A stretch of 64,000 nucleotides of DNA from assembly GCF_003335585.1 (NCBI RefSeq), contig NZ_QBFD01000015.1, positions 802,754 to 866,753 of the forward strand, given 5' to 3'. Source of the stretch: Sulfitobacter sp. DFL-14. Lineage in GTDB: Bacteria; Pseudomonadota; Alphaproteobacteria; Rhodobacterales; Rhodobacteraceae. Position numbers and translations under genes: made by a program. The notes under the pieces are model-generated. The model did no database searches, was not told where the DNA came from, and saw nothing but the letters and a program-made list of their open reading frames with translations. Positions 31,418 to 48,592 of the stretch are shown here, one piece after another. Position 1 is the first letter of the stretch, and the number at the start of each line of letters is the position of its first letter.

Positions 31418-31839
31418 TCGGCGAAGGCTCCTGTCAGAGGGGGAGGGTTGTCCGCCTGTTATGGGCCGCGGGGCAGAGCAGGGCCAGAGGAAATTGAATC
31501 GTCAAGGTCGGGCAAGGGCAGTGTCGCCCACCCCGGGCAGGCGCTGGCCCGGCTTGCACCTTATGTCACGCCGGGCCCGATCCCGCCGTTCGCTGCATTT
31601 TCACGAATGACCGCTGAGCTTCTGCCGCGTGCTACGGAGGTAGCGACGCGCACCGGGTCGGCAATATGACACAAAGTCGGGTTTGGCCGGGCATTTGACA
31701 GGCGGGCCTCCGCCCGAACCGGCGAACCGGGGCCGGCATTTCAGGTCAGCGCGGGACTCTGTTGCGGGCAAGCGCATTCGGCGCATGAGTTGTCGTGAAT
31801 GAGCCTTGCCTTGGCTGGGGCGAAGTGCAACATTGGGCT
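31418..31839. other. Intergenic stretch ahead of the cobalamin riboswitch
   Basis: About 420 bp between the EamA gene and the riboswitch. No convincing gene is present. A small GC hairpin (GGCGG-GCC-TCCGCC) lies near 31698. The promoter of the cobalamin operon must lie in the last part, but no clear -35/-10 pair could be chosen. Confidence 0.4.
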
Positions 31840-32035
31840 TGCTTGGTGTTCCCGCAAGCGCCCCTTTGGGTGTGGAACCGAACAGGGAATTCCGTAAGGG
31901 CCGCACAGCCTGAAACGGAAGCCGCCCCCGCGACTGTAAGCGGAGAGTCTGTGCCCAACGTGCCACTTGACCATTCGGTCGGGGAAGGCGGGCAAAGGCA
32001 TCGACCCGTGAGCCAGGAGACCTGCCAGGCGTGAG
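31840..32035 (+). promoter_or_regulatory. Cobalamin (AdoCbl) riboswitch
   Basis: The conserved core elements occur in order: GGTGTTCCCGCAAGCG at the 5' side, GGGAAT, GCCGCCCCCGCGACTGTAAG, AGTCTG, GCCAC (31962-31966), GGGAAGGCGGG, and the B12 box AGCCAGGAGACCTGCC (32011-32026). It ends about 44 nt before cbtB. In this class, cobalamin binding lowers expression, usually by sequestering the downstream ribosome-binding site. It should control cbtB, cbtA and the following genes by product feedback. Confidence 0.95.
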
Positions 32036-32078
32036 AAACTTGAAACAGGTCGTCGGGTGTGACGGCAAGGAGAAGACC

Positions 32079-46634: not shown

Positions 46635-46933
46635 CGGTGTTTGTCTGCGGTTCCTGTCCGGAAGGCACGGGTTTCGTCGAGATGATGCGCCGTGGCCTGC
46701 CGGAAGAGGAGGTGAAGCAGATCGACTGCATGTCCGGCTGTACCCGGCCGCAGACCGTTGCCTTTCGGGTGACGGGCAAGGTGGCCTATCTGTTTGGCGA
46801 CATCACGGCGGATGATCTGGGGGATCTGCAACGGTTTGCGGCACTATATGCGGCATCATCCGATGGCACCTTTGCCGATGCTCGGGTGCTGGGCGGGTTG
46901 CGGATGAAAGCCATCGCGCGGATTCCGGGATGA
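46631..46933 (+). CDS. DUF1636 family [2Fe-2S]-type protein (second copy)
   Basis: A 100-residue protein with a GTG start overlapping the cobA stop. The Cys pattern CGSC (about 6-9) and CMSGC (about 34-38) is that of DUF1636. It is related to the first copy at 33647-34021 but shorter. Two copies at opposite ends of the cob operon suggest separate redox or metal-handling roles. Its stop overlaps the cobF start (ATGA). Confidence 0.82.
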   Translation: MTVFVCGSCPEGTGFVEMMRRGLPEEEVKQIDCMSGCTRPQTVAFRVTGKVAYLFGDITADDLGDLQRFAALYAASSDGTFADARVLGGLRMKAIARIPG

Positions 46934-47688
46934 GCGGGTTGCACCTGACCCTGATCGGTATCGGCACCGGCAACCCCGAGCATCTGACGTTGCAGGCCAT
47001 CCGGGCGATCAACGCGCAGGACCTGATCCTGATCCCGCGCAAGGGGCCGGGCAAGGATGACCTTGCAGAGCTGCGCCGCGCCATCTGCGACGAGGTTTTG
47101 GAAAACGAGGCCACGCGCATCGTGGAATTCGACCTGCCGGTCCGCAACGCGGCAACAGCGGATTACCGGCGTCGGGTGGATGATTGGCATGACGCGATTG
47201 CCGAGGCCTGGCGCGGGGCGATGGCGGAGCAACCGGAGGCGGCGCGGGTGGCGCTGCTGGTCTGGGGCGATCCGTCGCTTTACGACAGCACCCTGCGTAT
47301 TGCTGCGCGGCTGGACCCGCCACCGCAGGTCGAGGTGATCCCCGGGATCACGTCACTGCAGGCGCTGACAGCGGCCCATGCCATTCCGGTCAACGAGATC
47401 GGGGCGCCTTTTGTCGTGACGACGGGACGGCGCTTGCGGGACGCGGGCTGGCCTGAAGGGATCGACACGCTGGTGGTAATGCTGGACGGAACCTGCGCTT
47501 TTGCCGATATCGACGCCGGAGGGGTGCATATCTGGTGGGGCGGATACGTCGGCATGCCGGAGCAGATCATTTGCGAAGGCCCGCTGGCCGAGGTCGCGGC
47601 GCGGATCGTTCAGATGCGGGCCGAGGCGCGGGCGCGGCATGGGTGGATCATGGATATCTACATCCTGCGCAGGGATCATAGCGTCTGA
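46930..47688 (+). CDS. cobF: Precorrin-6A synthase (deacetylating) CobF
   Basis: Converts precorrin-5 to precorrin-6A with loss of acetate, a step special to the aerobic pathway. It is 252 residues (reference 261), with the methylase start IGIGTGNPEHLTLQAI, the CobF-type LILIPRKGPGKDDLAELR and VWGDPSLYDSTLRI. It is the last gene of the cobalamin operon and ends inside a palindromic repeat. Confidence 0.94.
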   Translation: MSGLHLTLIGIGTGNPEHLTLQAIRAINAQDLILIPRKGPGKDDLAELRRAICDEVLENEATRIVEFDLPVRNAATADYRRRVDDWHDAIAEAWRGAMAEQPEAARVALLVWGDPSLYDSTLRIAARLDPPPQVEVIPGITSLQALTAAHAIPVNEIGAPFVVTTGRRLRDAGWPEGIDTLVVMLDGTCAFADIDAGGVHIWWGGYVGMPEQIICEGPLAEVAARIVQMRAEARARHGWIMDIYILRRDHSV

Positions 47689-47778
47689 CGAAATACCTGA
47701 AGCATCATGCATCACGTAACGCGTTGAAATCTCTGATTTCAGGCAGCGTTACGTGATTCAGGTTTTTCGCATGACGCT
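47680..47778. repeat. Palindromic repeat element A / bidirectional terminator candidate
   Basis: A nested inverted repeat of 99 bp: outer AGCGTC/GACGCT, then ACCTGA/TCAGGT, then a perfect 12-bp arm ATCACGTAACGC (47711-47722) with its complement at 47746-47757, and an inner 7-bp stem TGAAATC/GATTTCA with a 3-nt loop. It starts in the cobF end and reaches the arfB stop, so it could end both transcripts. It shares end motifs with the repeat at 53603-53700. Confidence 0.8.
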
Positions 47779-48201
47779 TTAGTCCGATGGGTCGACCTTG
47801 CCCCGCATGGCCTTGACCTCTCCCCGGACCTTTTTCGATTTCAGGCGGCGCTTCTTTGATCCCAGCGTCGGGCGTGTGGGGATGCGGCGCTTGGGCGGTG
47901 TCAGGGCCTTTTTGATCAGCTCGGCCAGACGGTCGCGGGCAATATCCCTGTTCCGGGCCTGACTGCGGGTTTCATCGCATTGCAGGATCAGCGCGCCCTC
48001 GTTCGTCCAGCGGCGCCCGGCAAGACGGCGCAGGCGCGCTTTCACGGGGCCGGTCAGGGAGGGCGAAGTTGCCGCCTCGAAACGCAGTTCGACGGCGGTT
48101 GCCACCTTGTTGACGTTTTGGCCGCCCGGGCCTGAGGCACGCACGAAATTCTCCGTGAGCTCCCAGTCCTGAATGGCGATGGTATCCGTGATCCTCAGCA
48201 T
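47779..48201 (-). CDS. arfB: Alternative ribosome-rescue factor ArfB
   Basis: Peptidyl-tRNA hydrolase (YaeJ/ICT1 family) that frees ribosomes stalled on mRNAs without a stop codon. It has 140 residues from ATG 48201. The GGQ motif at 26-28 is in SGPGGQNVNK, and a basic C-terminal tail (rich in Lys/Arg, including KKRRLKSKKVRGE) enters the mRNA channel. An intrinsic terminator and an unusual leader lie directly upstream, so its expression may depend on read-through. Confidence 0.95.
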   Translation of the reverse strand: MLRITDTIAIQDWELTENFVRASGPGGQNVNKVATAVELRFEAATSPSLTGPVKARLRRLAGRRWTNEGALILQCDETRSQARNRDIARDRLAELIKKALTPPKRRIPTRPTLGSKKRRLKSKKVRGEVKAMRGKVDPSD

Positions 48202-48240: not shown

Positions 48241-48268
48241 AAAAGGGCCGCCCCGGTCGGAGCGGCCC
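48241..48268 (-). terminator. Intrinsic terminator upstream of arfB
   Basis: On the minus strand: a 10-bp stem GGGCCGCTCC/GGGGCGGCCC (one G-U) with loop GACC, followed directly by TTTTC. This is a strong Rho-independent terminator for leftward transcripts, 40 bp before the arfB start. It ends the leader described at 48241-48427. Confidence 0.85.
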
Positions 48269-48351
48269 AATTGTCGGTTTGGCGAATGGTTTCAGGAGGT
48301 GGGTCGGTTAGACCATCTGTCCACTCGGGATTTCAGCTGCCAGGGGCTGCC

Positions 48352-48408
48352 CTAGCAGGAGGTCCTCCAAGCTGTTCCGACACCTCGCTCCAATACCTTT
48401 CTTGACAC
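48352..48408 (-). CDS. Possible 18-residue leader peptide
   Basis: GTG start at 48408, placed seven bases after the AGGAGG core of the exceptional Shine-Dalgarno. The product would be VSRKVLERGVGTAWRTSC. A 27-codon frame from GTG 48416 (VIQCQERYW...) overlaps it but has no room for a Shine-Dalgarno. A start-stop ATGTAA lies at 48422-48427. No family is recognised. Confidence 0.4.
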   Translation of the reverse strand: MSRKVLERGVGTAWRTSC

Positions 48409-48533
48409 TGGATCACCTCCTTTACATTTGTTGAACTCAACCTCAGGTTTGCACAGGTTTTTCAAAACGCAAAGAGATTTTTTGCAGCAGGCGTGATCCT
48501 GCGCTGCGGCTGCGCCGCGCGTGATTCATTTTT

Positions 48534-48562
48534 AGGCATGGGGGAGGTTATCCCCCATGCCT
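48534..48562 (-). terminator. Terminator after the VUT transporter gene
   Basis: A 12-bp stem AGGCATGGGGGA/TCCCCCATGCCT with a 5-nt loop, followed on the minus strand by AAAAATG and no T-run. It is a perfect inverted repeat 30 bp downstream of the VUT stop. On the plus strand a TTTTTA lies on the other side. It is a likely transcript end or processing structure, orientation uncertain. Confidence 0.55.
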
Positions 48563-48592
48563 GCTGAGTATTTCCGGAACTAAGAAGCCAGG

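Follow-up and report, generated by a model that had tools for sequence, protein, structure and literature searches.

Upstream of arfB, the gene for an alternative ribosome rescue hydrolase, the minus strand of the 64-kb stretch of DNA analysed here (the window) carries an RNA element that we read as a translation-gated riboregulator. A tiny open reading frame (ORF) follows an unusually long Shine-Dalgarno sequence (SD), the 3' end of the RNA would lock the RNA's own ribosome-binding site, and at this locus arfB would be fed by read-through. We favour this reading with somewhat better than even confidence. The element looks like a divergent relative of CC2171, a small RNA (sRNA) family already in Rfam, and what appears to be new is an ORF, a selected stop codon and a self-lock in a known but unexplained sRNA family.

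The element and its parts

The element occupies 48435-48241 on the minus strand and reads TTCAACAAATGT-AAAGGAGGTGATCCA-GTG..., continuing as an 18-codon frame that ends in TAG. A hairpin encloses this TAG, and CCACCTCCT and then a terminator ending in TTTT come after it. Comparison with related sequences points to an independently terminated, structured RNA of ~190 nt with the predicted layout of an mRNA. The parts referred to below are as follows.

48445..48473, minus strand: tentative promoter with a -35-like TTTGCG (48473-48468) and a -10-like AAACCT (48450-48445), called by eye; the upstream block is kept in 30 genus sequences
48428..48435, minus strand: 5' leader motif TTCAACAA, nearly invariant in the genus alignment
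48408..48423, minus strand: super-SD AAAGGAGGTGATCCAG, consisting of the core AAAGGAGGTG (nt 1-10) and an extension (nt 11-16), called from the sequence and family conservation
48352..48408, minus strand: small ORF of 18 codons, VSRKVLERGVGTAWRTSC, with a GTG start at 48408 and TAG at 48354-48352
48389..48412, minus strand: start-codon hairpin P2, 48412-48404 with 48397-48389, called from pairing conservation and two-sided changes
48414..48420, minus strand: SD side of the SD:anti-SD helix, with 98.2% of cells paired
48295..48301, minus strand: internal anti-SD copy CACCTCC, partner of the SD by family pairing
48398..48402, minus strand: 5' strand of the long-range helix P1 (codons 3-5, in the P2 loop), covarying with the pre-terminator strand
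48284..48289, minus strand: 3' strand of P1, CCATTC, called from the sequence and family covariation
48337..48358, minus strand: hairpin P3 around the stop codon (CTGCTAGGG / CCCTGGCAG), helices 3 and 4 of the family structure
48241..48268, minus strand: intrinsic terminator, 48268-48259 with 48254-48245 and then TTTT, called from pairing and from two-sided changes at all 10 pairs
47779..48201, minus strand: arfB (alternative ribosome rescue hydrolase; NF006718, PF00472), starting 43 nt past the terminator arm

The segments named in a preliminary description of this DNA are all present, namely the 16-nt SD, CCTCCT (48362-48357, minus strand), CACCTCC, a second GGAGG, TTGGAGCG and the terminator hairpin, with the second GGAGG and TTGGAGCG both inside the element on the minus strand. 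The RNA folded better than shuffled versions of it (z -2.69, 3/200). The gene upstream of the element encodes a queuosine-precursor-type transporter (TIGR00697). A hairpin on the 3' side of that gene, GGCATGGGGG-ATAA-CCTCCCCCATGCC at 48535-48565 (minus strand), is by eye its likely terminator.

Distribution of the element

Genus, family, class and phylum in the following counts are those of the source organism, the class being Alphaproteobacteria. Of 36 genus genomes, 35, the source genome among them, match a 241-base stretch at E below 1e-31, and the only miss (G017) is a fragmented assembly. The preliminary description had proposed a covariance search for the element among its relatives. A covariance model built on 30 genus sequences and used to search 149 family genomes matched 129 of them at E <=0.001 (122 at E <=1.1e-9 and seven weak); the other 20 gave no match. 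We read 110 of the 129 matched genomes (30 loci from this search and 80 fetched afterwards) and removed L148, which left a family set of 109. The 19 matched genomes left out were the seven weak ones and 12 strong ones (E <=1.1e-9; G405, G301, G419, G386, G390, G292, G333, G294, G277, G288, G402 and G361).

A 20-nt start-region pattern with one mismatch allowed was found in 71 of 398 phylum genomes, all of them within the 135 Alphaproteobacteria and none among the 263 genomes outside that class, and the reversed control pattern was found in 1 of 398. Slightly more than half of the Alphaproteobacteria sampled (71/135) thus have the start-region motif. It is single copy in 70 of the 71; the sole two-copy genome, G047, carries it at C1:805113 and C1:2922049. 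A longer start-region pattern with CAACAA matched 8 of 240 class genomes, including the source genome and one congener, with no match for its reversed control. No plasmid record matched the element (blastn, E <=1e-5). The class set was assembled from 71 loci, from which five were removed by hand (L035 and L036 from the source family, the truncated L056, and L052 and L053 from Azospirillum) and six as duplicates, leaving 60. Figures for SD conservation in the class are biased upward because 33 loci were found via an exact SD pattern. The leader motif TTCAACAA also occurs in many class-wide relatives, whose search patterns partly required it.

Relation to CC2171

The preliminary description suggested that the element might be undescribed, which the match to Rfam RF01867 (CC2171) contradicts: the element looks like a divergent, sub-threshold relative of this family. 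RF01867 aligned full-length to the window's element with 33.1 bits (E 1.8e-5 and 9.9e-6), below the gathering cut-off of 75 bits at which formal membership begins. Over the 5' block that contains the extended SD and the RTGTC start, identity to the model covers 27 of its first 29 letters, and the other two scored as similar. The model's long-range helix, CAUUGUC:GACAAUG, has a family counterpart that lies in the same place, uses other letters and covaries; in the window's own RF01867 match the long-range helix is not aligned as a helix. The 3' intrinsic terminator of RF01867 corresponds to helix 5 of the family structure.

Across the class, RF01867 matched 85 of 385 genomes at E <=0.001, of which 13 passed the cut-off, and among 14 control genomes only Caulobacter was matched. 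Five same-family genomes among the matches listed had sub-cut-off hits (E 1.5e-6 to 6.4e-5), and three of these five places coincide with elements already found. When 18 class loci were scanned, five passed the RF01867 cut-off, Methylobacterium and Pseudolabrys among them. The class relatives have AAAGGAGGTGATCCA or something close to it, followed by an equally spaced start codon, and they too end in a terminator. A bridging sequence from the source family (L210, genome G274) reads ATGTCTCATGGG and then a LES.IGT frame, so that a start of ATG TCT CAT, as in the CC2171 class, is followed by a family-like frame.

CC2171 and the element are alike in the 5' CAACAA..AAAGGAGGTGATCCAGTGTC, a helix from codons 3-5 to pre-terminator bases and the terminator. 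The element differs in its P1 sequence, a short P2 loop and its linkage to arfB, and it adds the SD:anti-SD helix and the stop-codon hairpin. CC2171, reportedly first described by Landt et al. in 2008, is typed by Rfam as an sRNA gene with no ORF mentioned there. The literature covered, which included few subscription journals and was partly available in excerpt, yielded no study of what CC2171 does, nor did it mention an ORF or SD within this RNA; where the family is named, it is in tables only. The accessible parts of the Caulobacter sRNA literature were of no help in placing the element.

The extended Shine-Dalgarno sequence

As the preliminary description stated, AAAGGAGGTGATCCAG at 48423-48408 (minus strand) is an exact 16-nt complement of the 16S rRNA end. 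The match is to the tail in three same-genus genomes, taken as the SSU model end on CTGGATCACCTCCTTT, and a 16-mer would be expected by chance ~0.003 times in 5.7 Mb, both strands counted. In the source genome itself (G000) AAAGGAGGTGATC occurs once, which implies an assembly without a 16S 3' end of that sequence, and the draft apparently lacks rRNA operons.

The same description treated the 16 nt as a single unit directed at 16S rRNA, and here the family set calls for a narrower claim. In 108 of 109 members nt 2-10 of the SD complement the 16S tail without a mismatch, all 16 nt do so in 63, and a 15-nt pairing with G-U allowed is retained in 95. Nucleotides 11-15 lose full 16S pairing in nine of 105 members, and in those nine they keep 4.8 of 5 pairs with nt 32-36 in the start-codon hairpin; in L100 both sides of this pairing are replaced. 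Because P2 is kept where the 16S pairing is lost, the SD extension appears to answer to P2 and not to 16S rRNA. On this comparison, the firm 16S match is the first 10 nt only.

In Staphylococcus aureus, initiation in general is reported to use extended SD pairing (PMC13009471). The element resembles this in pairing beyond the usual core, but is one self-closing RNA.

A short ORF with a fixed start and a selected stop

The tiny ORF noted after the SD in the preliminary description was borne out by the family set, in which both of its ends are fixed. It starts at SD+15 in 105 of the 109 members, and these 105 were used for the ORF and stop counts, the other four having other spacing. Exactly 18 codons are found in 99 of the 105, with codon 19 as the stop. 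Among these 99 the stop was TGA in 50, TAG in 39 and TAA in 10. TGG did not occur, although 19.7 cases would be expected from the A and G frequencies if RNA pairing alone mattered. Because TRR is kept and TGG never appears, against about 20 expected, the stop codon itself appears to be selected.

The reading frame is also preserved more widely. Frame 0 is open for 17-30 codons in 107 of 109 family members, compared with 26 and 28 for the other two frames, and in all 60 sequences of the class set, compared with 6 and 13. By these counts the ORF is either translated or, at the least, kept translatable by selection.

Predicted folding of the RNA over its own start site

We scored a proposed structure on the 109 family sequences and found 90.2% of cells paired, with two-sided changes in 22 of 35 pairs. 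None of 500 shuffles reached it on any of five measures, and slid controls fell far below. In helix 1, formed by the SD and the internal anti-SD copy, 98.2% of cells are paired; its 3' side changes almost only from C to T or from A to G, with pairing kept, and two-sided changes are lacking because the SD side is invariant. The anti-SD copy reads CCTCC in 73 of 109 members and CCATCTCC in many others. P2 (helix 2), which holds the start codon, has 93.3% of cells paired and two-sided changes in 4 of 9 pairs. The corresponding figures for the stop-codon hairpin P3 are 70.3% and 82.8% (helices 3 and 4), with two-sided changes in 8 of 9 pairs, and the terminator (helix 5) reaches 95.0%, with such changes in every one of its 10 pairs. 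Energy-based duplex permutation tests of P1, SD:CCTCC and GGAGG2:CCTCC gave no signal, because they left the register open and the SD does not vary.

The preliminary description envisaged two anti-SD copies and mutually exclusive pairings, and part of this is upheld. CACCTCC pairs with the SD, and this distal pairing is the conserved one, whereas only the species itself and its nearest relative, out of 30 genus sequences, carry the first CCTCCT, and the pairing of TTGGAGCG with CGCTCC is not conserved. The second GGAGG, which lies in the ORF, is loosely retained as a partner of CCTCC, with no covariation. The anti-SD sRNAs SisA-D of Caulobacter likewise carry a CCUCC-type anti-SD motif, according to the part of the report available (PMC12559287); in the element this motif pairs instead with the RNA's own SD.

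In nested folding, the SD core had an unpaired probability of 0.05 in the full-length family RNA and of 0.44 when the 3' part was left off. The analysis shows that the predicted SD:anti-SD helix can be completed only after the 3' end is made.

The long-range helix P1 joins codons 3-5 (GAAAG, GAGAA, GAATG...) to bases just before the terminator (CTTTC, TTCTC, CATTC...). Scored in a fixed register, 82.6% of P1 was paired in the family compared with 72.7% after permutation (0/5000), and with one sequence per combination (33) the values were 71.5% and 63.8% (2/5000); these permutation counts somewhat favour P1, whose register had been picked by eye from those very sequences. P1 was scored in 106 of the 109 members, the window's own copy being among the three missed. 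At the locus P1 has 5 of 6 pairs by eye, and an insertion after its 3' strand is absent from most relatives. In the class, CATTGTC:GACAATG lies at the same place and covaries (58 sequences, 0/1000; one per distinct 5' strand, n=17, 0/2000). The probability of P1 in the nested-fold model was 0.04 in the family, a low value because P1 crosses the SD:anti-SD helix. The helix that P1 crosses is helix 1 in family sequences and P2 in class sequences, so P1 would be part of a pseudoknot, or of an alternative state or switch.

P2 in the class pairs the SD extension with a downstream CTGGATC, scoring 5.70 compared with 5.50 after permutation (0/1000, 60 sequences), and its paired changes include GATCCCG:CGGGATC and GATCCTG:CAGGATC. 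A score below 6 of 7 was obtained for 28 of the 60 sequences, and not all class members form P1 or P2. The class set is nearly without an anti-SD copy (CCTCC in 3 of 60), so the lock would be built differently there. The set of features shown by these comparisons comprises a nearly invariant 10-nt SD, a fixed start spacing and the predicted P2, P1 and terminator.

Proposed mechanism

We propose that the SD is free during transcription, when a 30S subunit could be captured. Once the polymerase reaches the terminator, the 3' end would fold over the SD and start codon and translation would be shut, and a ribosome that had loaded in time would hold the RNA open up to the fixed stop. A very strong SD would make sense in such a scheme because the ribosome must win a short race. 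The RNA would record whether ribosomes load, acting mainly via being translated and not via its peptide. In the source family, arfB may be expressed largely by read-through that is tuned by the element; alternative outputs of the open or closed state could be RNA stability, or pairing in trans by the freed anti-SD copy.

The sensing of ribosome availability that the preliminary description proposed is plausible for such an RNA. A broader version is one we put forward only tentatively, as a possibility that we would not yet bet on: that this is an ancient, mostly single-copy alphaproteobacterial RNA serving as a ribosome-availability sensor, in which a 30S subunit is captured only during transcription, the SD and start codon are otherwise locked by a 3'-end pseudoknot joined to the terminator, and the device has become linked in cis to a ribosome-rescue gene in one family. 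A selected start, length and stop, together with a 3'-end lock, would make of a so far anonymous sRNA a translation-gated device that can be tested.

Linkage to arfB

The position directly ahead of arfB was confirmed, the downstream product being ArfB by NF006718 (185.5 bits, cut-off 100), with PF00472 matching as well. In the genus, arfB lies within 1.5 kb in 29 of 30 loci, the miss being L027. In the family set it was found within the 1-1.5 kb read in 93 of 109 members, on the same strand in all 93; its start is 15-130 nt past the terminator arm in 86 of these and at most 60 nt past it in 52. A separate promoter would hardly fit into such short gaps, and arfB is thus likely expressed by read-through or from a promoter inside the element. 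The literature that we covered showed nothing on the regulation of arfB in the source family. If ribosome loading sets the read-through into arfB, this would answer how the backup rescue factor is regulated there.

The specificity for arfB that the preliminary description implied does not extend to all relatives. In 16 of the 109 family members arfB was absent from the flanks read, which span 1-1.5 kb to either side. We searched 15 of these 16 genomes and all have arfB elsewhere, 1.4-3.2 kb further on and on the same strand in six (G308, G338, G404, G335, G387 and G330) and farther away or on another contig in the other nine. In the class, 30 of 67 next genes, duplicate loci included, were on the opposite strand; these genes were picked mechanically, and L032 and L071, which are the same stretch, gave different picks. 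Pfam supported 5 of 10 opposite-strand picks (HI0933-like, enoyl-CoA hydratase, EAL, dehydratase and lysozyme) and 6 of 10 co-directional ones (M13 peptidase, DUF488, tRNA synthetase, CitMHS, glycosyltransferase and IF-1). Because the RNA occurs without a nearby arfB and its class neighbours vary, it seems to have a role of its own, with arfB as a family-specific neighbour.

These observations bear on the arfB-specific transcription attenuator of the preliminary description, in which the ORF and an SD/anti-SD switch choose between the terminator and an antiterminator (TTGGAGCG), so that arfB goes up when ribosomes are scarce or stalled. A same-strand arfB downstream in 93 of 109 members, often with little promoter room, and a strong terminator are what such an attenuator would have. 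However, the proposed antiterminator fails on conservation: TTGGAGCG and the terminator arm pair no better within than between species (z +1.4). Codon 8 is AGA in place of CGA in 5 of 30 genus sequences. In four of these the CGCTCC arm is unchanged; CGCTCT takes its place in the fifth (L029) and also in three sequences with CGA. Given also that some family members carry the element at a distance from arfB, and that its neighbours in the class are varied and in part convergent, we consider an arfB attenuator unlikely. Leader-peptide attenuators of the trp type, such as peTrpL of S. meliloti, also combine a short ORF, a terminator and a downstream gene. The element departs from them in having no run of regulatory codons by eye, no conservation of the proposed antiterminator and a downstream gene that varies across the class.

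Role of the encoded peptide

Rather than a riboregulator, the element could be a plain small-protein or type-I-toxin-like mRNA, with a functional peptide of 18-30 aa and a 5'-3' lock that merely delays translation, as in hok or AapA. The fixed ORF and its selected stop would suit this, as would a tiny-ORF mRNA closed over a long range. Furthermore, 28 of the 32 class P2 partners with a score of at least 6 (of 60) lie at offsets equal modulo 3, related sequences being counted apart, so that indels tend to respect the frame. Azospirillum has versions that look secreted: in L052 and L053 the same SD and an MSH start lead into a 59-codon signal-peptide-like ORF (MSHGA.PV.AA.FG...LLTAG.A.ADC).

The peptide sequence itself argues the other way. 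The dN/dS ratio was 0.77 in the ORF frame compared with 0.73 and 0.69 in the shifted frames, a comparison that RNA constraint confounds; being no lower in frame, it shows no coding-specific protection of the peptide sequence, and we dropped dN/dS as proof of coding. By eye the peptide has no membrane-like stretch. Class relatives have ORFs of 17-30 codons that often begin (V/M)SHCH..., and their recurrent W and 'TWI' coincide with CUGGAUC, the RNA partner of the SD extension. The element is also mostly single copy (70 of 71 genomes). A peptide-encoding mRNA of this kind is in our judgement quite improbable, and translation itself seems to matter more than the peptide product. The type I toxin mRNAs hok and AapA1 likewise have a tiny ORF, a strong SD and a 3' end that closes the full-length RNA. 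The element shares these three features and differs in a peptide that is not toxin-like by eye and in being mostly single copy.

Ribosome decoy or chance match

A further alternative is a ribosome decoy, a ribosomal counterpart of 6S RNA, in which an exposed SD of 10-16 nt and a hidden start codon would tie up 30S subunits. A nearly invariant SD far longer than needed, the 15-nt pairing with G-U allowed in 95 of 109 members and the locking of the start codon by P2 and P1 are compatible with a decoy. Yet the SD itself is paired in the source family (unpaired probability 0.05), nt 11-15 follow P2 and not 16S rRNA, and a selected stop codon would serve no purpose, which makes a decoy very unlikely. 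That the 16 nt, being the reverse complement of the 16S end, are a chance match or an antisense 16S remnant has next to no probability and was ruled out by conservation (129 of 149 family genomes, and the 20-nt pattern in 71 of 135 Alphaproteobacteria compared with 0 of 263 others and 1 of 398 for the reversed control), and Rfam gives no rRNA match at the locus.

Neighbouring features of the window

On the other side of arfB, an imperfect palindrome (ATCACGTAACGC...GCGTTACGTGAT) lies at 47700-47760, between arfB and a convergent tetrapyrrole methylase gene, and by eye it looks like a shared terminator or a binding site. The methylase is an open frame at 46930-47688 (plus strand) that matches PF00590. 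At the gathering threshold, Rfam matched only a cobalamin riboswitch in the 64-kb window, at 31827-32043 on the plus strand (118.9 bits), and the open frames at ~43.7-47.7 kb, also on the plus strand, resemble cobalamin genes by eye.
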